Shown: positions 11,113 through 32,516 of the stretch, in pieces
Position numbering within the stretch: the stretch's first letter is position 1
Layout: every line of letters begins with the position of its first letter
Source of the DNA: Ruminococcus sp.
Lineage (GTDB): Bacteria; Bacillota; Clostridia; Oscillospirales; Ruminococcaceae
Assembly (NCBI GenBank): GCA_017519415.1
Contig: JAFWSI010000070.1
Span: forward strand, 62,001 to 126,000
Direction of reading: 5' to 3'
DNA: 64,000 nt
The notes under the pieces: generated by a model
The model's input: only the letters and a program-made list of their open reading frames with translations
Database searches by the model: none
Told to the model about the DNA's origin: nothing
Translations under genes and position numbers: made by a program

Positions 11113-11622
11113 TTATATGTCAATATCCATTTCTGCTGTATTGTTTATAAGGTCCAGGGCGGTCTGAGCCCTTGCAAGCTCCTCGGAGACCGCGGTATAG
11201 TCCCTGTTCACCTGTTCTATGTCGTAATTTGCATAGCGGTAATCTATAACGGTCGAACCGCGGGAAAGACCTGCATTGTCGCGGACCTTGGGAAGAGCGT
11301 CCTTCATGACGGACAGTCTTATGCAGCGTCTGCTGAGCTGAGGAAGATATACCAGCATTTCGTCTATGGTAAAGCCGTATCCGGGGATAACTGTCGTTGC
11401 ATTGAAAAGGTTTACTGTATGCTTTATCCTGCGTATTTTCTCTTCGACAGCCTTCTGCTGTTCCTGCATGGACGTATAATCGTAAGCGGGACGGACCGAC
11501 TCGGGGTCCTCGCCGAGTGCTGCAAGGAAGCTGCTGGAGTTATCCTCGCGCAGCTGTAGAGTCCTTATCTCCTCGTTGAGCTGGCGGAGCAGCTTTGCCG
11601 CCTGTGCTGATGTCATTTTCAT
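11113..11622 (-). CDS. DIP1984/septicolysin-like coiled-coil protein, function unknown
   Basis: 169 residues from the ATG at 11622, chosen because GAGGAGGTAATACT stands directly before it; a longer frame to 11658 lacks such a site. The protein is almost entirely helical: residues 1-40 and 45-75 form heptad-rich coiled coils (KLLRQLNEEIRTLQLRED, EEKIRRIKHTVNLFNAT), and the C-terminus (IEQVNRDYTAVSEELARAQTALDLINN) is a third helix. The helix-NxxNA-helix pattern resembles the DIP1984 family, which has no established function despite the old name septicolysin. No signal peptide or membrane segment. It lies downstream of the MORN gene on the same strand, after a hairpin. Confidence 0.65.
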   Translation of the reverse strand: MKMTSAQAAKLLRQLNEEIRTLQLREDNSSSFLAALGEDPESVRPAYDYTSMQEQQKAVEEKIRRIKHTVNLFNATTVIPGYGFTIDEMLVYLPQLSRRCIRLSVMKDALPKVRDNAGLSRGSTVIDYRYANYDIEQVNRDYTAVSEELARAQTALDLINNTAEMDIDI

Positions 11623-21710: not shown

Positions 21711-21770
21711 ATGAAAAATTACAGATATATCATTAATTCTGAGCGAATGCGATGTCTGCGCTGCGCTTGA
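21711..21770 (+). CDS. 19-residue leader peptide ending in Arg-Cys-Leu-Arg-Cys-Ala
   Basis: ATG behind AGGAG with 8-nt spacing; reads MKNYRYIINSERMRCLRCA and stops 47 nt before the transporter lipoprotein. Two Cys codons (21753-21755, 21762-21764) lie within the last five codons. The block GCGATGTC, read in frame as Arg-Cys, also occurs near the end of the leader at 25311. No terminator hairpin lies between this stop and the next gene, so control, if any, would be by stalling and initiation rather than transcription attenuation. Confidence 0.65.
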   Translation: MKNYRYIINSERMRCLRCA

Positions 21771-21817: not shown

Positions 21818-23011
21818 ATGAAGAATAAACTGATAACGATCGCTGCTGTTGCAGCTTTATCACTGCTCACGGGCTGCGGAGCACTTAACAATAACTCTCA
21901 GGGAAACGAAGTGAGTTCAGAAGCAAAAAACGAAACGACCGCGGCAGACGGAACAAAAGACTGCTGCGAGGACAAGGATAAGGATTGCTGCTCGGAGCCT
22001 GCCGACTGCTGCGGTGACAGCGCCGAGGCGGTTATCGGCAAGCCTGAAAAAACCGATATAAACATCGGCTACCTGAATTCAACGGCTCATCTGCTTGCAT
22101 TCGTTGCAGCTGAGGAGGGCTACTTCAAGGAAGAGGGACTCAACGTTACTCTCACACAGTTCTCCAGCGCAGCAGAGCTGGTAAACGGTCTTGAATCCGA
22201 CAAGCTTGACGTTGCGTTCATCGGCTCGGTACCGACTCTCACATTCCTCAGTCAGGGACATGATATCTCGGTCATCGGCGGAGCAATGACAAACGGTCAC
22301 GGCTACGTTATCAAGTCCGAATTTGCAGACAAGGACGAAGAAGGCGTTGAGATACTCAAGGGCAGGAACGTTGCTTCCGTAAAGAACAGCGTTCAGGACG
22401 CAGAGCTCCAGATACTTCTCAAAAATGCAAACATCGAGATAGGCGAGGGTGATGACAAGGTAAATATCGTTTACTTCGACAGCCAGAAGGACGCTTATGC
22501 AGCTCTTCTCAACAAGAATATCGACGCAGCTTCGGCATATTCGCCATACACATCACTTGCAAAGTCACAGGGCTATAAGGTAGTTTACTACTGCGCACAC
22601 GAAAAGGCACTGGAGAACCAGCCCTGCTGCCGTCAGGTCGCAAAGACATCTGCTGTAAATGATAATCCGAACACATTCACAGCTCTCGAAAGAGCATTTA
22701 TCAAGGCTTACCACCTTACACAGAGCGACCACGCAAAAACAATAAAGGACGTTAAGAAATACATCGACATAGAGGAAGATTTCATCAAAACAGAGGTTTA
22801 CGGCGGCTTCAGCGTATCAAGCCCCGACCCTGATAAGCAGGGTACTCTGACTCTTAAAGATACTATCGTAGAGCTTGGCTACACCGAGGACTTCGACATC
22901 GAGCCTCACTACAATACAGAGATCTACAGCAAAGCTCTTGACAGCATGTTAGCTGAGAGTAAAGATGACATCTACTCATCATTAAAGGAGCATTTTGATG
23001 ACTACGAATAA
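21818..23011 (+). CDS. Substrate-binding lipoprotein of sulfonate/taurine-type ABC transporter, with cysteine-rich linker
   Basis: 397 residues. Signal peptide with lipobox LLTG-C at Cys20, so membrane-anchored on the outside. Residues 30-75 form an acidic linker with three Cys pairs (Cys49/50, 57/58, 64/65 in DCCEDKDKDCC...DCC). From about 78 on it is a SsuA/TauA/ThiY-like binding domain (INIGYLNSTAHLLAFVAAEEGYF, KLDVAFIGSVPTLTFL, YAALLNKNIDAASAYSPYTS) with another Cys pair at ENQPCCRQ. Substrate is probably an organic sulfur compound, judged from the family and the neighbouring cysteine genes. A cysteine-rich linker in a sulfur-scavenging protein is unexpected and may bind metal or thiols. 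Confidence 0.85.
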   Translation: MKNKLITIAAVAALSLLTGCGALNNNSQGNEVSSEAKNETTAADGTKDCCEDKDKDCCSEPADCCGDSAEAVIGKPEKTDINIGYLNSTAHLLAFVAAEEGYFKEEGLNVTLTQFSSAAELVNGLESDKLDVAFIGSVPTLTFLSQGHDISVIGGAMTNGHGYVIKSEFADKDEEGVEILKGRNVASVKNSVQDAELQILLKNANIEIGEGDDKVNIVYFDSQKDAYAALLNKNIDAASAYSPYTSLAKSQGYKVVYYCAHEKALENQPCCRQVAKTSAVNDNPNTFTALERAFIKAYHLTQSDHAKTIKDVKKYIDIEEDFIKTEVYGGFSVSSPDPDKQGTLTLKDTIVELGYTEDFDIEPHYNTEIYSKALDSMLAESKDDIYSSLKEHFDDYE

Positions 23012-24855: not shown

Positions 24856-25143
24856 TGTAGGGGCGCCCTTTGGGCGTCCGTTATTCCCGTTGCAAATTGA
24901 TTCAAAGCATTGTAGGGGAGGGCGCCCTCGCCCTCCCATGCCTTACGAATCATGTAACATTGTTTTTCGTGTATATGGTTCATGTTCATTTAAATAAAGC
25001 GGCTTTGATGATACGTATATTACGGGAGCCCGAGGGCGGGCTCCCCTACAGCTTTTTTCGTGATAATTAATGTAGGGGCGGCGTTTCGCCGCCCGTTTGG
25101 ATACGCAATGTTGCCTGACGGGCGACGGGACGTCGCCCCTACA
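24856..25143. repeat. Cluster of five GC-rich palindromic units bounded by TGTAGGGG or CCCCTACA
   Basis: Units at 24856-24880, 24911-24938, 25023-25050, 25071-25095 and 25120-25143. Each has TGTAGGGG (or CCCCTACA in the inverted ones) next to a self-complementary core such as GGCGGCG-TTT-CGCCGCC or GAGGGCGCCCTC. Cores differ while edges are kept. They resemble dispersed non-coding palindromes of gut Clostridia, possibly non-autonomous mobile elements. The rest of the 577-bp gap between permease and leader (25144-25200) is AT-rich with nothing recognisable. Confidence 0.75.
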
Positions 25144-25203
25144 ATCTTAGTTCTGAATCAACAAAATCTATAAAACCTACAGGAATAATAGAATAATTCT
25201 ATA

Positions 25204-25259
25204 ACTATCGCCGAATATAGTCTAAACCTATTGACACGGTATGCAAACCATGCTATAAT
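25204..25259 (+). promoter_or_regulatory. LysR-type dyad and promoter of cysteine operon
   Basis: ACTAT-N8-ATAGT (25204-25221), 9 nt, TTGACA (25231-25236), 17 nt, TATAAT (25254-25259). This copy has a perfect -35, whereas the three others have TGGACA. Transcription would start near 25266. Confidence 0.75.
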
Positions 25260-25310
25260 ACATATAGATCCGATAGGAATACAAGAGATTAACATAAAGG
25301 AGTGCTGAAC

Positions 25311-25415
25311 ATGAGAACTAATATGATGTGTTGTATGCAGTGTTGTTGTATGAATATATCAACCGAAGTCCGTATTCTGCATACCTATGCTCAGCGATGT
25401 CGCGTTGACTCCTGA
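25311..25415 (+). CDS. 34-residue cysteine-rich leader peptide of cysteine operon
   Basis: ATG behind AAAGGAG with 8-nt spacing. It starts MRTNMMCCMQCCCMNIST and ends ...QRCRVDS. Cys codons cluster at 25329-25334 and 25341-25349 (all TGT), with one more at 25398-25400. The stop is 19 nt before an intrinsic terminator. Cys density, position and the alternative RNA pairings show it to be the sensing peptide of an attenuator. It is not expected to have a function as a protein. Confidence 0.85.
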   Translation: MRTNMMCCMQCCCMNISTEVRILHTYAQRCRVDS

Positions 25416-25470
25416 CTTTAAGCGAGTAAATGTTATGCGCAGAATGCGAATGTCATTCTGCGCATTTTTA
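25334..25470 (+). promoter_or_regulatory. Cysteine transcription attenuator (alternative stems 1:2, 2:3, 3:4)
   Basis: Segment 1 TATGCAG (25334-25340, on the Cys codons) pairs with CTGCATA (25377-25383). Segment 2 CGTATTCTGC (25371-25380) pairs over 10 bp with GCAGAATGCG (25439-25448). Segment 3 ATGCGCAGAATG (25435-25446) pairs over 12 bp with CATTCTGCGCAT (25454-25465), followed by TTTTTA, an intrinsic terminator. Pairings 1:2 and 3:4 exclude 2:3. A ribosome held at the Cys codons masks segment 1 and favours antitermination; free translation favours the terminator. Confidence 0.85.
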
Positions 25471-25486: not shown

Positions 25487-26383
25487 ATGGTAAATGAAAG
25501 AGAAAGCGTTACCGCTAAGATATGCGCCTTTGTGAGAGCATGGCACTCAAACAGGGCGCGTCAGAAGATATACGACGACTACCTTGCCTACGATATGCTC
25601 GGCAAGGAGGAATATGACAGCATATACGAGCTAATAAGCAGCGGGCTTGACGGCTCCCAGCAGCTCTCACGGGAGGACACGGAGCAGGTAATAAGTGAAT
25701 ATTTCGCACCAATACCTTTATCAAGGATACACTTCAATGAGAGCAGACTTGCGGACTTCGCAGCTGAAAACGGAAGTATACAGTATGTCATCTGCGGAGC
25801 AGGCTCTGATACCTTTGCCTTCCGCAGCGGCAATGAGAATATAGAGATATTCGAGATAGACCACCCCGACACTCAGCGATACAAGCTAGAGAAGATACGG
25901 GAGCTTGAATGGAAAATCCGCGATAATGTGCATTATGTTCCCGTTGATTTTGAAAAGGAACGAATGTGCGACAAGTTACTTGCGGCAGGCTTTGATCCTG
26001 AAAAAAAGACCTTTTTCAGTATTCTCGGTGTAACTTATTATCTTACGCTTGATGTGTTTACGGACACCCTAAGGCAAATGGCAGGGCTTTCGGCTCTCGG
26101 CAGTGCGGTAGTATTTGATTATCCTATAAAAACAGGGGAGTTCCCGCGGAGAGTCGCAAGACTTGAACAGATAACCGAGGGCATGGGCGAGGTCATGCGC
26201 GGCGGCTATGATTACAATGAAGTATCAAGAGCGCTGTACTCTCTCGGCTTTCAGATAGACACATATATGCCGCCTGAAAAGGTGCAGCGGGAGTACTTTG
26301 ACGGCAGAGAGGACGGCCTCAGGGCATTTGAAAACGTGAGCCTGATCTCGGCGACCTATACCGCAGACTATGATTACGAATAA
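25487..26383 (+). CDS. SAM-dependent methyltransferase, LCM/YktD-like family
   Basis: 298 residues from the ATG at 25487 behind CGGAGG; an in-frame ATG at 25430 lies inside the terminator and was rejected. Motif I is YVICGAGSDTFAFR, followed by an acidic strand end IEIFEIDHPDTQRYKLE typical of leucine-carboxyl-methyltransferase-like enzymes (TIGR00027 group). No membrane segment. First enzyme gene after the cysteine attenuator and just before mccB and mccA; Bacillus has an unrelated SAM methyltransferase (yrrT) in the same place of its mcc operon. It may drain SAM to SAH as the source of homocysteine. The methyl acceptor is unknown. Confidence 0.8.
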   Translation: MVNERESVTAKICAFVRAWHSNRARQKIYDDYLAYDMLGKEEYDSIYELISSGLDGSQQLSREDTEQVISEYFAPIPLSRIHFNESRLADFAAENGSIQYVICGAGSDTFAFRSGNENIEIFEIDHPDTQRYKLEKIRELEWKIRDNVHYVPVDFEKERMCDKLLAAGFDPEKKTFFSILGVTYYLTLDVFTDTLRQMAGLSALGSAVVFDYPIKTGEFPRRVARLEQITEGMGEVMRGGYDYNEVSRALYSLGFQIDTYMPPEKVQREYFDGREDGLRAFENVSLISATYTADYDYE

Positions 26384-26483: not shown

Positions 26484-27644
26484 ATGAGCAGTTATAAAAA
26501 TACAGAGACTACACTTATCCACGGAGGTATCTCCATTGATGAGCGCACAGGCGCCGTAAATATCCCCATATACCAGACCTCCACCTACAAGCAGGACGGC
26601 CTCGGTAAAATGCGCGGCTATGAGTACTCCCGTACAGGCAACCCCACCCGTGAAGCTCTTGAAGCTATCATTGCTGACCTTGAGGGCGGAGTAGCAGGCT
26701 TTGCATTCGGCTCGGGAATGGCTGCGCTTACGGCAGTTCTCAGTCTGCTTCACAGCGGCGACAGAGTTCTAATTTCCAGCAACGTATACGGCGGTACATT
26801 CCGCCTGCTGAGCAAGGTGTTCGATCACTTTAACATCACATATACGATCGCTGATACTACAGACCTTGCAGTTTACGAGAGCCAGATAAGCTCCGACGTA
26901 AAGGCAGTCATTATCGAGAGCCCTGCAAATCCGCTTATGACAGTCACCGATATAAAGGCAGTTGCAGAGGTATCCCACAGGCACGGACTTCTCGTCATCG
27001 TGGACAATACGTTCATGACGCCTTATTTGCAGAAGCCCCTTGAGCTCGGCGCAGATATCGTAGTCCACAGCGCTACGAAGTACCTCGGCGGTCACAGCGA
27101 CGTAGTATCTGGACTTGCAGTTGTAAACTCAAAGGAGCTTGCTGAGAGGATAGCTTTTATCCAGAATTCCACAGGCGGAGTCCTCGGACCTTTCGATTCA
27201 TTCCTGCTTATCCGCGGCATAAAGACTCTTGCAGTCCGCATGGACAGACACGTTGAGAATGCTGAAAAGATAGCAAAGCTCCTTGAAGATCATAAGGCGG
27301 TTAAGAATGTTTACTACCCGGGGCTGAAAAGCAGTCAGGGCTATGAGATAAATCGCAGACAGGCTAAAAACGGCGGAGCTATGATATCATTCGAGCTTCA
27401 CGAAAACTACGACATAAACACATTCTTTGAGAGCCTGGAGCTTGTCTCACTGGCTGAGAGTCTCGGCGGCGTGGAGTCTCTTGTATGCCACCCCTCATCA
27501 ATGACTCATGCTTCCATTCCTGCCGATATTCGTAAAAAAGTCGGCATAACCGACGGACTTATACGTTTATCAGTCGGAATAGAAAATATTGAGGATATTA
27601 TCGCAGATATCGAACAGGCTATTGCAAAATCAGAGAGAAAGTGA
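26484..27644 (+). CDS. mccB: Cystathionine gamma-lyase / trans-sulfuration PLP enzyme
   Basis: 386 residues from the ATG at 26484 behind AAAAGGAG. Cys/Met-metabolism PLP fold: ETTLIHGGISIDERTGAVNIPIYQTSTY at the N-terminus, PLP lysine in VVHSATKYLGGHSDVVSG, and SLGGVESLVCHPSSMTHA at the C-terminus. Gene order with mccA and a SAM methyltransferase matches reverse trans-sulfuration (cystathionine to cysteine, 2-oxobutyrate and ammonia). Cystathionine gamma-synthase, beta-lyase or methionine gamma-lyase cannot be excluded by sequence alone. Confidence 0.85.
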   Translation: MSSYKNTETTLIHGGISIDERTGAVNIPIYQTSTYKQDGLGKMRGYEYSRTGNPTREALEAIIADLEGGVAGFAFGSGMAALTAVLSLLHSGDRVLISSNVYGGTFRLLSKVFDHFNITYTIADTTDLAVYESQISSDVKAVIIESPANPLMTVTDIKAVAEVSHRHGLLVIVDNTFMTPYLQKPLELGADIVVHSATKYLGGHSDVVSGLAVVNSKELAERIAFIQNSTGGVLGPFDSFLLIRGIKTLAVRMDRHVENAEKIAKLLEDHKAVKNVYYPGLKSSQGYEINRRQAKNGGAMISFELHENYDINTFFESLELVSLAESLGGVESLVCHPSSMTHASIPADIRKKVGITDGLIRLSVGIENIEDIIADIEQAIAKSERK

Positions 27645-27654
27645 GATAATATAT

Positions 27655-28566
27655 ATGAGATACTATGATTCAATGCAGGCTCTCATCGGAGACACCCCTC
27701 TGGTAAGGCTTGGAAATCTTGTTCAGAATGAGGGCGTGAACGTCTTTGCAAAGCTGGAACTTTACAATCCCTCAGGCAGCGTCAAGGACAGGACGGGTCT
27801 TTACATGATAAACGACGCCGAGAAGAAAGGACTTCTTAAAAAAGGCGGCACTATCGTTGAAGCTACCGCAGGCAATACAGGGCTTGGCATAGCATTTGCA
27901 GCGCTGAACCGCGGCTACAAAATAATCTTTGTAGTTCCCACGAAATTCTCAGCCGAGAAGCAGTCTCTCCTCCGCGCACTGGGTGCAGAGGTGGTGAATA
28001 CTCCCCGTGAGGAGGGAATGCTGGGAGCCGTAAGAAAAGCTGAGGAGATAAAGGCTCAGATACCCGGCTCTATTTCGCTGGAGCAGTTCAAAAATCAGAG
28101 CAATCCCCTTGCACATTACGAAACTACAGGCAGAGAGATATTTGAAGCTCTCGACGGCAGGATAGACTATGTAGTTGCAGGCGCAGGAAGCGGCGGTACT
28201 TATACAGGTATACTCCGATATATCAAGGAGCGGGTACCGGATGCAAAGGGCATACTTGCAGATCCTGTGGGCTCTACTATGGGCGGAGGAGAGCATTCCG
28301 ACTATAACATTGAAGGTATCGGAAACGATTTCATTGCTGAGACAATGGATATGTCCCTTGTGGACGACGTTATAAAGGTAAATGATGAAGAGGCGTTCAA
28401 TACTGCCCGTCTGCTGGCAAAGACCGAGGGCGTTATTGCAGGCTCCTCATCGGGAGCGGCTATGGCGGCGGTCATTAAGCTCATCGAAAGCGGCGCAAAG
28501 GGCAATATCGTGACGGTATTCCCCGACCGCGGAGACCGTTATTTCAGCACGGGACTTTATGATTAA
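27655..28566 (+). CDS. mccA: Cystathionine beta-synthase / cysteine synthase family protein (MccA-like)
   Basis: 303 residues from the ATG at 27655. Fold-type II PLP enzyme with Lys in NPSGSVKDRTG. The asparagine loop reads EATAGNTGLG, as in cystathionine beta-synthases and MccA, rather than the EPTSGNTG of CysK. The glycine loop is AGAGSGGTYTG. No CBS regulatory domain. Likely reaction: O-acetylserine (or serine) with homocysteine to cystathionine, feeding MccB. The start is 10 nt after mccB. A plain cysteine synthase activity remains possible. Confidence 0.85.
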   Translation: MRYYDSMQALIGDTPLVRLGNLVQNEGVNVFAKLELYNPSGSVKDRTGLYMINDAEKKGLLKKGGTIVEATAGNTGLGIAFAALNRGYKIIFVVPTKFSAEKQSLLRALGAEVVNTPREEGMLGAVRKAEEIKAQIPGSISLEQFKNQSNPLAHYETTGREIFEALDGRIDYVVAGAGSGGTYTGILRYIKERVPDAKGILADPVGSTMGGGEHSDYNIEGIGNDFIAETMDMSLVDDVIKVNDEEAFNTARLLAKTEGVIAGSSSGAAMAAVIKLIESGAKGNIVTVFPDRGDRYFSTGLYD

Positions 28567-28617: not shown

Positions 28618-29529
28618 ATGACTTTACAGCAGCTTAAATACATACTTGCAATATCTGCAACAGGCTCAATGAACAAGGCGGCTGAGCAGCTATACGTTTC
28701 TCAGCCCTCTCTGACTTCTTCTGTTCAGGAGCTTGAAAAGGAGATAGGCATAAAGATTTTCAACCGCAGCGGCAGGGGAGTTACCCTTACCAATGACGGT
28801 GCAGAATTCATACAGTATGCCCGTCAGGTGGTAGGACAGTTCGATGTACTTGCCGAAAAATACATCAGCAGGGGTAATGTGAAAAAGAAGTTCGGCGTGT
28901 CCACTCAGCATTACTCCTTTGCGGTAAAGGCTTTCGTGGAAATGGTCAAGGAGTTCGACACCGCGGAATACGAATTTGCAGTCCGTGAGACAAAGACTGC
29001 CGAGGTCATAAGCGACGTTGCGACTATGAGGAGCGAGATAGGCATTATCTACCTCAACGACTTCAACCGCAAGTCCATAACCAAGCTGCTGCACTCAAAC
29101 GGTCTGGAGTTCCATACACTGACAAAGTGCAGTCCTTTCGTTTACCTGTGGAAAGGACACCCCCTTGCAAAGGAAAAGAAGATAACCTTTGAGCAGCTTG
29201 CGGATTATCCCTGCCTTTCCTTTGAGCAGGGCGACAACAGTACCTTCTATCTTGCCGAGGAGCTGCTCAGTACAGCCGACTATCAGCGTACTATAAAGGC
29301 AAACGACCGTGCCACAATGCTGAACCTTATGATAGGTCTGAACGGTTATACACTGTGCTCCGGAATCATCTGCGAGGAGCTCAACGGCAGCGATTATATC
29401 GCCGTTCCCTTTGAGGACAACTCCGACGAGATAATGGAGATAGGCTACATCACGCTGAAAAACGTGATACTCAGCGAAATGGCTGAGATATACATTGACG
29501 AGATAAAGACATACCTTAATATCAGCTAA
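28618..29529 (+). CDS. LysR-family regulator of sulfur genes (CmbR/CysB-like)
   Basis: 303 residues. N-terminal LysR winged helix (LQQLKYILAISATGSMNKAAEQLYVSQPSLTSSVQELEKEIG), then a two-lobed effector domain from about residue 92. The effector domain resembles the lactococcal CmbR group, which senses O-acetylserine and controls cysteine and methionine genes. It is the last gene of the cysteine operon, 51 nt after mccA, so it is probably autoregulated. It is the best candidate to bind the TAT-N8-ATA dyads at 21622, 25204, 29553 and 32523. Effector and targets are inferred. Confidence 0.85.
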   Translation: MTLQQLKYILAISATGSMNKAAEQLYVSQPSLTSSVQELEKEIGIKIFNRSGRGVTLTNDGAEFIQYARQVVGQFDVLAEKYISRGNVKKKFGVSTQHYSFAVKAFVEMVKEFDTAEYEFAVRETKTAEVISDVATMRSEIGIIYLNDFNRKSITKLLHSNGLEFHTLTKCSPFVYLWKGHPLAKEKKITFEQLADYPCLSFEQGDNSTFYLAEELLSTADYQRTIKANDRATMLNLMIGLNGYTLCSGIICEELNGSDYIAVPFEDNSDEIMEIGYITLKNVILSEMAEIYIDEIKTYLNIS

Positions 29530-29640: not shown

Positions 29641-30174
29641 ATGGCAGGTTTCAGCAAAATAAAGGAGATAATCTGGCTCGGACGGGGCGGACAGGGTGCA
29701 TTTACCGCCGCTAAGCTCCTCGGAGCGGCCTATACGATAAACGATGACGGCAGGTATGCCCTTGCATTCCCGTCCTTCGGACCCGAGCGCCGCGGAGCTC
29801 CCGTAAGAGCATTCACCAAGCTCGATACAAGACCTGTTGCGGACAGGAGCCAGACCGAAAAGGCGGATTATATCGTTATCCTTGACGATACATTGTACAG
29901 CCCTCAGCTTCGTGAACTCCTGAAAGAGGACGGCATTATGATCGTAAACTCCAAAAAGGATATTGACGGAGCTCTCACATTTGACGCTGAGAGAACAGCT
30001 TCTGAATTCAGGCTTCCCACTGTCAATTCTGTAATGCTGGGACTTCTGACAGGACTTTCGGGAATTGTCACCGCTGAAAACGCGGTGGAGGCTATAAAGG
30101 GATATATGCCGCAGAAAATACAGGAGAGGAACATAAACGCCCTTCTCAGAGCAGTGCAGGAGGTGGCAAAGTGA
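29641..30174 (+). CDS. 2-oxoacid:ferredoxin oxidoreductase, gamma subunit
   Basis: 177 residues. Opens with EIIWLGRGGQGAFTAAKLLG, the gamma-domain CoA-binding loop, followed by ALAFPSFGPERRGAPVRAFTKLD, both hallmarks of pyruvate/2-oxoisovalerate oxidoreductase gamma chains. First of four overlapping subunit genes. The complex exchanges 2-oxoacid + CoA + oxidised ferredoxin with acyl-CoA + CO2 + reduced ferredoxin. The regulatory site upstream ties it to sulfur metabolism. Confidence 0.92.
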   Translation: MAGFSKIKEIIWLGRGGQGAFTAAKLLGAAYTINDDGRYALAFPSFGPERRGAPVRAFTKLDTRPVADRSQTEKADYIVILDDTLYSPQLRELLKEDGIMIVNSKKDIDGALTFDAERTASEFRLPTVNSVMLGLLTGLSGIVTAENAVEAIKGYMPQKIQERNINALLRAVQEVAK

Positions 30175-30464
30175 AACCTTATATCAGAGAAAAAAAGAGC
30201 TTCACATTTGATGAAGTTCCCGAAAATACATCCTTTGAAGCAGGCTACCTCACCACAGTCAACAGCGGCTGGCGAAGCATAAGACCTGTTATAAACAGCG
30301 TAAAATGTGTGGGCTGCGAGCAGTGCTATCTCTACTGTCCCGACGGAGTTATCTCTGTAAATGACGGAAAAGCAGTAATTGATTACGACTTCTGCAAGGG
30401 CTGCGGCATATGTGCGAAAATATGCAGGATAGGCGCAATAGAAATGGAGGCGGAGCGCAAATGA
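30171..30464 (+). CDS. 2-oxoacid:ferredoxin oxidoreductase, delta (ferredoxin) subunit
   Basis: 97 residues. Two 4Fe-4S motifs: CVGCEQCYLYCP (about residues 44-55) and CKGCGICAKICR (about 75-86). It passes electrons from the active site to external ferredoxin. Overlaps gamma and alpha genes by 4 nt each, so translation is coupled. Confidence 0.93.
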   Translation: MKPYIREKKSFTFDEVPENTSFEAGYLTTVNSGWRSIRPVINSVKCVGCEQCYLYCPDGVISVNDGKAVIDYDFCKGCGICAKICRIGAIEMEAERK

Positions 30465-31633
30465 GCAAAAAGTTTTTATCAGGCAACGAAGCCTTTGCCG
30501 AGGGCATACGCCTTGCACGTCCCCAGGTCATTTCGGCTTATCCTATAACTCCACAGACCATAGTTGTTGAGCGTCTTTCGGAAATGGTGGAGGACGGCAG
30601 TCTCAAGGCTGAATACGTACACGTTGAGTCCGAGCATTCGGCCATGTCATGCGCTATCGGAGCAAGCGCCGCAGGAGCGAGAGCCTTTACGGCTACTTCT
30701 TCGCAGGGACTTCTCTACATGGCGGAATGTCTCTATTATGCGTCGGGCGGACGTTTCCCCATAGTTATGATGAACGCTGACCGCTCCACAGCACTCCCGT
30801 GGAATATCTACGGCGACCAGCGTGACAGCCTTTCACAGCTTGACAGCGGCTGGATACAGGCGTATGCCGAGAACGCTCAGGAGGCTCTCGACCTTGCGCT
30901 CATGAGCTACAGGATAGCAGAGGATAAGCGTGTTTCCACGCCCTATATGGCTAATCTGGACGGCTTTGTGCTAACTCATACATATGAAACAGTGGATATC
31001 CCCGACCGTGAGCAGGCAGACAGGTTCCTGCCGCCCTATGAGACCGACAACCGCATAGACTTTGAGTCTCCGAAGAATATGGCGTTCTCCGCGGGTCCGG
31101 ATACCAACTACATCTTCAAGTACAAGGAGCATGAGGGCGTACTTGCGGCACGTCAGGTCATAACCGAGACCGAAAAGGCTTTTGCCGGGATATTCGGCAG
31201 GAAATATACAGGGCTTACCGAAAACTACCGCACCGATGATGCCGATTACATTATCGTTACTCTGGGCAGTATAGCAGGACTATGCCGCGAAACTGCTGAT
31301 AAGCTCCGCGAAAAAGGCGTAAAGGCAGGCGTTGTACGCATTCGCTACATGAGACCTTTCCCGAATGCTGAAATAGCTGAGGTACTGCGCAATGCTAAGG
31401 CATATGCAGTCCTTGAAAAGGACATCAGCTTCGGCAACGAGGGCACAGTCTTCACCAATGTCAATTCCGCCCTGAAAAAGGCAGGAGCGGACGTAAAGGG
31501 CTATAACTTCATTGGAGGACTTGGCGGACGCAATATCTCCGCTTCTGACATTGAAAAGATATACAATGACATCGCAAATGGCACGGAAAGTGTCAGTTTT
31601 ATAGGAATAGGAGGCGGGAGCAATGGCAAATAA
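30461..31633 (+). CDS. 2-oxoacid:ferredoxin oxidoreductase, alpha subunit
   Basis: 390 residues from the ATG at 30461 (ATGA overlap). N-terminal PYR domain: GNEAFAEGIRLARPQVISAYPITPQTIVVERLSEMV, AEYVHVESEHSAMSCAIGAS; the C-terminal domain includes VRIRYMRPFP and DISFGNEGTVFTNV. Normal length. The substrate cannot be read from sequence; pyruvate, 2-oxobutyrate and branched-chain or aryl 2-oxoacids are possible. The link to mccB favours 2-oxobutyrate; the nearby CoA ligase favours aryl or branched acids. Confidence 0.92.
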   Translation: MSKKFLSGNEAFAEGIRLARPQVISAYPITPQTIVVERLSEMVEDGSLKAEYVHVESEHSAMSCAIGASAAGARAFTATSSQGLLYMAECLYYASGGRFPIVMMNADRSTALPWNIYGDQRDSLSQLDSGWIQAYAENAQEALDLALMSYRIAEDKRVSTPYMANLDGFVLTHTYETVDIPDREQADRFLPPYETDNRIDFESPKNMAFSAGPDTNYIFKYKEHEGVLAARQVITETEKAFAGIFGRKYTGLTENYRTDDADYIIVTLGSIAGLCRETADKLREKGVKAGVVRIRYMRPFPNAEIAEVLRNAKAYAVLEKDISFGNEGTVFTNVNSALKKAGADVKGYNFIGGLGGRNISASDIEKIYNDIANGTESVSFIGIGGGSNGK

Positions 31634-32516
31634 GGTTGCAGACAGCATATCACGCGAGGAGTTTTTCTACGGACACAAGGCCTGTGCAGGCTGCGGCGGC
31701 AGTCTTGCAGTAAGAGCGGCTCTGAAAGTTCTCGGGCAGAATGCGGTATCTGTGCTTCCGGCGGGCTGTATGTCGGCAGTAGGATTTAACTTTCCGCAGC
31801 TCTGCTTCTCCAACAACTCGATTATCTCCACATTTGCAGGCACGGCTTCCATGCTCACAGGCGTTGAGGCAGGTCTCCGCGCAAGGGGAATAAGGGACTT
31901 CACCGCAGTAGGCTTTGCCGGCGACGGCGGCACGGCAGATATAGGAATACAGGCTCTTTCGGGAGCGATCGACCGCAATGACAATATCATCTATATCTGC
32001 TACGACAACGAAGCCTACATGAATACGGGCATTCAGAAAAGCGGTCTCACGCCTTTCGGTGCAAAGACCACGACTACTCCCGCGGGAGCGAATATACACG
32101 GAAATATCCGTCCCAAAAAGAATATGTTTGAAATAGCAGCAGCACATGATATACCCTATGCAGCAACTGCAAGTGTGGGGTATCTCTACGACTTCATACA
32201 GAAGGTGCAGAAGGCTTCAAAGATACAGGGAACAAAGTATATCCACGTTATAGCCCCATGTCCCACCGGCTGGGGAGTTGCTCCCGACGAGACCGTTGAC
32301 ATAGCCAAGGAGGTCGTTGACTGCGGACTGTGGTATCTTGCTGAGTATGAAAACGGTGAATTCAGGCTCAATCACAAGCCGAAGGAGTTCACAAGCGTTG
32401 AAGCATACCTTAAAAAGCAGGGACGCTTCAGACATCTCACAGACGAGGATATACAGGTGATAGAGGTTTCCCGCGATAAGAAGTGGGACTATATTGACAG
32501 GAATTTTCAGTTATAA
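31623..32516 (+). CDS. 2-oxoacid:ferredoxin oxidoreductase, beta (TPP-binding) subunit
   Basis: 297 residues, overlapping alpha by 11 nt. Proximal cluster Cys in HKACAGCGGSLAVRAALKVLG, the TPP-Mg motif GFAGDGGTADIGIQALSGAIDRNDNIIYICYDNEAYMNTG with GDGG, and a further Cys late in the chain. It completes the four-subunit enzyme. No terminator was found before the next promoter at 32523. Confidence 0.93.
   Translation: MANKVADSISREEFFYGHKACAGCGGSLAVRAALKVLGQNAVSVLPAGCMSAVGFNFPQLCFSNNSIISTFAGTASMLTGVEAGLRARGIRDFTAVGFAGDGGTADIGIQALSGAIDRNDNIIYICYDNEAYMNTGIQKSGLTPFGAKTTTTPAGANIHGNIRPKKNMFEIAAAHDIPYAATASVGYLYDFIQKVQKASKIQGTKYIHVIAPCPTGWGVAPDETVDIAKEVVDCGLWYLAEYENGEFRLNHKPKEFTSVEAYLKKQGRFRHLTDEDIQVIEVSRDKKWDYIDRNFQL

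Follow-up and report, generated by a model that had tools for sequence, protein, structure and literature searches.

A candidate ribosome-mediated cysteine attenuator in front of a methyltransferase-CGL-CBS operon of Ruminococcus

What controls a Ruminococcus operon for a methyltransferase and two enzymes of the cystathionine gamma-lyase/synthase (CGL) and CysK/cystathionine beta-synthase (CBS) families, which is preceded by a terminator and by a short reading frame crowded with Cys codons? The original prediction, drawn from the window (the whole 64,000-nucleotide stretch of DNA analyzed here), answered this question with the logic of trp attenuation applied to cysteine. On our comparative analyses the leader very probably acts as a ribosome-mediated transcription attenuator and responds to charged tRNA-Cys; the logic is supported by the presence of the leader in 38/38 testable genus genomes and by covariation in both the antiterminator (2:3) and the terminator (3:4) stems.

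The leader frame, its promoter and its operon

A coordinate check on the window placed every element that had been named (Table 1). The strong ribosome site and the 34-codon frame are present, as are the TGT codons at 25329-25334 and 25341-25349 and the 12-bp terminator, which starts 19 nt past the leader stop codon (25413-25415) and is followed by a U-run; the description as a five-Cys leader holds for these five TGT codons, to which a sixth Cys codon at 25398-25400 is to be added. Given the base composition of the region, at least five Cys among the 12 codons past the start would arise by chance with P = 3e-5, a figure obtained post hoc. The window contains three Shine-Dalgarno-preceded frames of 10-60 codons with at least four Cys codons, and the leader frame is the only one of the three with adjacent Cys. 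The leader RNA is predicted to fold stably (z -3.1), with none of 200 shuffles equally stable.

Table 1. Features of the leader, its surroundings and the second leader (window coordinates)
Feature	Position	Strand	Basis or remark
Second leader, MKNYRYIINSERMRCLRCA and stop, SER-MRC(C) ending	21711-21770	+	before sulfonate-type ABC transporter
Sulfonate-type binding protein gene	21818-23011		downstream of second leader
Second LysR-type box before operon	25188-25202		
LysR-type box ATAG-N7-CTAT, overlaps -35	25217-25231	.	CTATTGACA kept in genus alignment
Sigma-70 promoter TTGACA-17-TATAAT, TG before -10	25231-25259	+	12/12 match; kept in genus alignment
Conserved element TCCGATAGGAATACA, directly past presumed transcription start	25269-25283	+	genus alignment
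Shine-Dalgarno of leader frame, AAAGGAG	25296-25302	+	
P1 5' arm GCTGAACATGAG, contains leader start codon	25304-25315	+	proposed long-range helix
Leader peptide frame, 34 codons, 6 Cys codons, MRTNMMCCMQCCCMNISTEVRILHTYAQRCRVDS and stop	25311-25415	+	sequence, alignment
First Cys cluster CC-MQ-CCC, all TGT	25329-25349	+	presumed main stall site
Region 1, GTATGCAG	25333-25340	+	pairs with 25377-25384 (subclade, 9/38)
Region 2, CGTATTCTGC, antiterminator 5' arm	25371-25380	+	covariation
P1 3' arm CCTATGCTCAGC	25384-25395	+	predicted fold
Near-invariant block TATGCTCAGCGATGTYGC, encodes YAQRCC (YAQRCR in window)	25386-25403	+	alignment
Arg-Cys codon pair CGA-TGT	25395-25400	+	second presumed stall site
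Hairpin M 3' arm	25414-25430	+	alternative partner of block, weak support
Intrinsic terminator stem-loop (3:4), then U-run	25435-25465	+	sequence, covariation
Terminator arms ATGCGCAGAATG and CATTCTGCGCAT	25435-25446, 25454-25465		12 bp
Region 3, GCAGAATGCG, common to antiterminator and terminator	25439-25448	+	covariation
LCM-family SAM-dependent methyltransferase	25487-26383	+	PF04072, TIGR00027 above cut-off
CGL/synthase family enzyme (MccB-like)	26484-27644	+	
CysK/CBS family enzyme (MccA-like)	27655-28566	+	
LysR-type regulator	28618-29529	+	

The element around CCGATAGGAATACA at 25269-25283 is kept within the genus, its core CCGATAGG is found outside the genus too, and one locus (L060) repeats a similar copy of it. 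By eye, the intergenic DNA before the promoter contains GC-rich sequences resembling inverted repeats (about 24860-25140, of the type gtaggggcg...cgcccctac). The LysR-type box occurs six times in the window (at 11233, 14839, 21612, 25188, 25217, and 29543), compared with 0.94 expected (0/100 shuffles). Four of these boxes precede the transporter, the methyltransferase operon (two boxes), and a 2-oxoacid:ferredoxin oxidoreductase operon, which suggests a LysR regulon; the LysR regulator probably acts on the leader promoter as well. The oxidoreductase genes (gamma, alpha, and beta; 29641-32513) adjoin the methyltransferase operon and carry the same box; their product could oxidize the 2-oxobutyrate released by a cystathionine gamma-lyase.

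The assignment of the operon to reverse trans-sulfuration, part of the original prediction, is likely from gene order, because methyltransferase-mccB-mccA is also the order described for Clostridium perfringens (PMC2940859), and it is unproved at the level of the enzymes, whose families are ambiguous. The top NCBIfam model of the CGL scores 569.4 bits, under its cut-off of 594, and the nearest solved chains are a bifunctional CGL/homocysteine desulfhydrase followed by a cystathionine gamma-synthase; the CBS-like enzyme matches CysK and CBS models at 339-331 bits, all under their cut-offs, and its nearest solved chain is an O-acetylserine lyase. Among the named records found, those closest to the window methyltransferase are from Ruminococcus flavefaciens YL228 (94% identity) and MA2007 (93%). 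The genome that contains the window comprises 2.48 Mb and is 75% complete.

Conservation of the leader and of its RNA pairings

Similarity over the whole peptide makes a poor probe; relatives were therefore gathered via the downstream genes. With the leader peptide as query, a search of the family gave a match at E <=1 in 56/297 genomes, and the match in G295 lies just upstream of the methyltransferase of that genome. Sixteen of the loci with an MCCCM codon pattern were inspected; four are known leaders and 12 are unlike leaders by eye. A search of 100 genus genomes with the CGL protein identified a close homolog (87-98%) in 42. Four of these end at contig borders (L043, L061, L088, and L091) and were left out of the alignment; in one of the four genomes (G365) the leader is on another contig. 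The original prediction was to fall if neither peptide nor 2:3 stem proved conserved in relatives. The 2:3 stem is kept within the genus (see below), and a Cys-rich leader precedes the operon in each of the 38 genomes with upstream DNA, followed in every row by a terminator with at least 8/10 pairs. In the first part of these leaders, from codon 2 to region 2, Cys accounts for 165/627 codons (26%; three to six per leader), compared with 1.7% in the window's 37 frames of at least 200 codons; 143/165 are TGT, and the Cys codons are kept while neighboring codons change.

We also assembled 80 named loci with the methyltransferase, some of them shared with the genus set, and dropped L159, which has 147 nt of upstream DNA. 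A scripted test identified a Cys-rich, Shine-Dalgarno-preceded frame upstream of the methyltransferase in 65/79 and no leader in 14/79. Two of the 14 (L173 and L176) have a Cys-rich frame that falls outside the script criteria; the other 12 have none by eye, nor in a wider scan of the locus DNA, which indicates that the device is not universal for the operon. The methyltransferase sits behind other genes in at least four of the 12 (L172, L190, L194, and L200), and in L172, with the order CGL-CBS-methyltransferase, no leader was found before the first gene either. Leaders of the form ..NNxLCCCCMLK.. in records titled Lachnospiraceae (L181 and L186) and Eubacterium (L184) have only the Cys runs in common with the window leader; in L181 the next gene is, judging by its start, a transporter-like lipoprotein and not a CGL.

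Covariation within the genus, proposed with the original prediction as a check, is seen in two of the three mutually exclusive pairings. In the 38-sequence alignment the 2:3 stem is paired in 89.7% of cells with two-sided changes in 6/12 pairs, a result reached by 0/500 shuffles, and the 3:4 stem is paired in 98.9% with two-sided changes in 7/10 pairs. Given that region 2 is coding and that region 3 is shared with the terminator, the covariation of 2:3 is good evidence, at the level of sequence, for an antiterminator exclusive with the terminator in the genus. The exact 1:2 stem is of narrower occurrence: it extends to 8 bp in the window (25333-25340 with 25377-25384) and is confined to 9/38 leaders, and the median duplex z over all 38 is -1.0. 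When the RNA that a ribosome would cover at the final Cys codon of this cluster at 25329-25349 was masked, 2:3 formed with at least eight pairs in 32/38 folds and with fewer in six; with neither ribosome nor region 4 it did so in 12/38, and in the full naked transcript the terminator formed in 33/38. One genus leader (L081) has next to no 2:3 complementarity, and in 14 leaders outside the genus set, mostly of the MKTMCC type, an antiterminator was not apparent, with z from -0.2 to -2.4 and two below -2.

RNAalifold proposed a further long-range helix, P1, between the leader start site and the conserved block. P1 is 94.5% paired in the 38 leaders, with a median duplex z of -3.7, and is better conserved than the 1:2 stem, although without covariation: both arms hardly vary, no two-sided change was found, and no measure beats shuffles. 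At least six P1 pairs appear in 5/38 naked-RNA folds without region 4 and in 10/38 with it. Hairpin M is 80.4% paired with no clear covariation. An Rfam scan at gathering scores returned no family for the leader region and no T-box in the window; elsewhere in the same genome there are 10 T-box matches, five of them above the cut-off.

Comparison among the genomes establishes, as features of the sequence, the leader, its Cys runs, the 2:3 and 3:4 stems, the invariant block, and its CGA codon. From these we infer that the ribosome stalls, that the signal is cysteine, when each step takes place, and what P1 and the second site do. RNA polymerase would transcribe the leader, and a ribosome would initiate on the 34-codon frame. 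If Cys-tRNA is plentiful, the ribosome would reach the stop codon, the 3:4 hairpin would form, and transcription would terminate near 25470. If it is short, the ribosome would stall within the first Cys cluster, leaving region 2 free to pair with the emerging region 3, so that the terminator is blocked and the methyltransferase-CGL-CBS operon is transcribed. Late in the frame, CGA-TGT(-TGC) would offer another place to stall, which probably heightens sensitivity: a ribosome there would also leave region 2 free and would cover the block, which could otherwise pair with the start site.

The CGA-TGT codon pair, a second leader and competing readings

The block near the end of the frame, TAT GCT CAG CGA TGT TGC, is almost invariant, including third codon positions: among 36 distinct leaders GCT occurs in 35, CAG in 34, CGA in 35, and TGT in 35. 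CGA is an uncommon Arg codon (17/927 Arg codons, 1.8%, in 37 long window frames; 156/2772, 5.6%, when 185 frames from 36 named loci are pooled), and CGA-TGT accounts for 0/7 Arg-Cys pairs in those 185 frames. An Arg-Cys pair after residue 10 is present in 56/65 named-locus leaders and is CGA-TGT in 55/56; the other nine, all distant, have no such pair and keep their Cys runs. The exact block pattern is found in 34/100 genus genomes. A wider role of the block as a repeated element was rejected: of four hits inspected away from the aligned leaders, three lie in ordinary frames and the fourth is the G365 leader on its broken contig (one more hit each was found in G368 and G300). Pausing of RNA polymerase at the block was also considered, and was dropped because the base after the block varies.

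Part of the conservation of CGA-TGT reflects shared descent, and P1 could require it in the genus; that it recurs in another leader speaks for codon identity. This second leader carries CGA-ATG-CGA-TGT before the sulfonate-type transporter and has GCGATGT in common with the main leader. The binding protein has 58 matches in the genus, and we examined the upstream regions of the best 30 (L233-L262), dropping L253 (53 nt upstream) to give 29 second leaders and also L250 for a 28-row alignment. Among these best 30 of 58 matches, E-R-M is encoded in 29/29 testable loci; the first Arg codon is CGA in 29/29 and the second in 26/29, with CGT in one, and third positions differ among the Ser and Glu codons but not in the first CGA. 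In two of the 29 (L240 and L262) TGA replaces the CGA before Cys, and the frame ends before Cys. The nucleotide pattern of the second leader occurs in 40/100 genus genomes, at least one of them a chance hit (G362), and the reversed control gave none; it occurs in 5/297 family genomes, two of which (G190 and G124) look like chance. No terminator was seen by eye after the second leader, and RNAalifold gave no consensus structure for the 28 aligned. Pairing of its frame with the transporter Shine-Dalgarno has z below -2 in 11/28, and translational attenuation there is a guess. In G391 and G331 (L270 and L276) a further copy lies ahead of a second binding-protein gene, and the binding proteins of L264, L265, and L283 have CC-rich linkers after the signal region (e.g., DCCEDKDKDCCSE).

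CGA is presumably decoded here by an inosine-adenine wobble in the P site. We tentatively suggest that CGA, with UGU next to it in the A site, may be a reusable codon-pair sensor, unusually sensitive to Cys-tRNA, and that this module ends two unrelated leaders and could couple cysteine synthesis to sulfonate-type uptake. A rival reading, somewhat unlikely in our judgment, would make the C-terminal CGA-TGT-TGC the decisive stall, with the N-terminal Cys run a booster and the block an arrest or codon-pair element of both leaders. Within the genus CGA-TGT is the better conserved of the two sites, its near-exclusive use for late Arg-Cys pairs in the named-locus leaders points the same way, and it is the only such site in the second leader. 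However, every genus leader has an N-terminal run of three to six Cys, the nine distant leaders keep Cys runs without an Arg-Cys pair, and the second leader, lacking a predicted consensus structure, may work by a different mechanism.

The attenuator reading with its main stall in the first Cys cluster has to contend with Met, which accounts for 135/627 codons (21.5%, start codon excluded) from the start to region 2 of the 38 leaders, compared with 2.6% in the window genes, and which often flanks the Cys runs on both sides. A pure Cys sensor leaves this richness unexplained, and it counts against the attenuator reading; leaders of the MKTMCCMLCC type are likewise Met-rich. A dual sulfur sensor, with Met and Cys both as control codons and an operon that answers to both, would account for it, but Met-poor leaders exist (MRFVICPCCCCRNN and NNILCCCCMLK) and opening a Met-to-Cys pathway under Met shortage makes little sense, so that we regard this reading as quite doubtful.

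Near-invariance at third positions in 36 distinct leaders goes beyond the needs of a peptide, as would be expected if the block and start-site helix formed an RNA element that binds a protein or a small-molecule ligand, with translation of secondary importance. This is very unlikely given that Cys codons persist amid changing neighbors, that CGA-TGT is again in frame in the unrelated second leader, whose Ser and Glu third positions vary, and that no Rfam family matches at gathering score. That the frame encodes a functional peptide, a metal binder or a RiPP precursor modified by the methyltransferase, is hardly credible: the frame is short and Cys-rich and adjoins a SAM methyltransferase, but it drifts freely outside the Cys runs and RNA block, the terminator separates it from the enzyme, its neighbors are cysteine-metabolism genes, and eight leader peptides searched against Pfam and NCBIfam gave no match except one chance hit (E 0.67).

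Relation to known attenuators and significance

The comparisons below draw on the accessible parts of the cited papers. Leader attenuators are known in Firmicutes from Listeria Rli60, which serves ilv-leu (PMC5864092), and from the his leaders of bacilli, which are ribosome-mediated (PMC2965389). As in trp-type attenuators, the leader described here combines a short frame with control codons and a mutually exclusive antiterminator and terminator; unlike them, it is directed at cysteine, has a second presumed control site (CGA-TGT) near the stop codon, and contains a block complementary to its own start site. In Rhodobacterales, the uORFC-8-2 motif that precedes cysS (PMC8632094) likewise combines a leader frame containing Cys codons in tandem with an intrinsic terminator. 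It differs in taxon (alphaproteobacteria), in gene context, and in codon use, with UGC dominant there and TGT here, and the part of that paper available describes no CGA pair of the kind present in the Ruminococcus leader (PMC8632094).

The statement that Cys-rich leader frames are known in actinobacteria is borne out by candidates in Mycobacterium and before Propionibacterium acnes cys and Bifidobacterium longum cbs genes (PMC1262725) and by the mycobacterial polycysteine leaders (Canestrari 2020, as described in citing papers). Those frames likewise precede cys or cbs genes and have a Cys run near the stop codon; the accounts available describe no conserved terminator hairpins, and the mycobacterial frames are leaderless, whereas here both a Shine-Dalgarno and a terminator are present. 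The remark that no clostridial case of this form is known to have been described agrees with the literature matches listed, none of which, in a collection with few subscription journals, reports such an attenuator from clostridia.

A functional parallel is the ubiG-mccBA-luxS operon of C. perfringens, which has a cysteine T-box upstream (PMC2940859). Both systems comprise a SAM methyltransferase, MccB, and MccA, with tRNA-Cys charging as the presumed signal and premature termination as the outcome. The first gene is of the LCM family here and UbiG in C. perfringens, which also has luxS where the Ruminococcus operon has none; the T-box reads the tRNA directly, and in Ruminococcus the sensing seems to fall to a translated leader. 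According to the same source several clostridial cysteine operons have T-boxes and others are without known control (PMC2940859). The Ruminococcus operon thus seems to have swapped the sensor for one signal, with a translated leader in place of the clostridial T-box. The host organisms are rumen fiber degraders, and the conservation of CGA-TGT in two separate leaders makes it feasible to test whether codon-pair decoding is used for regulation.
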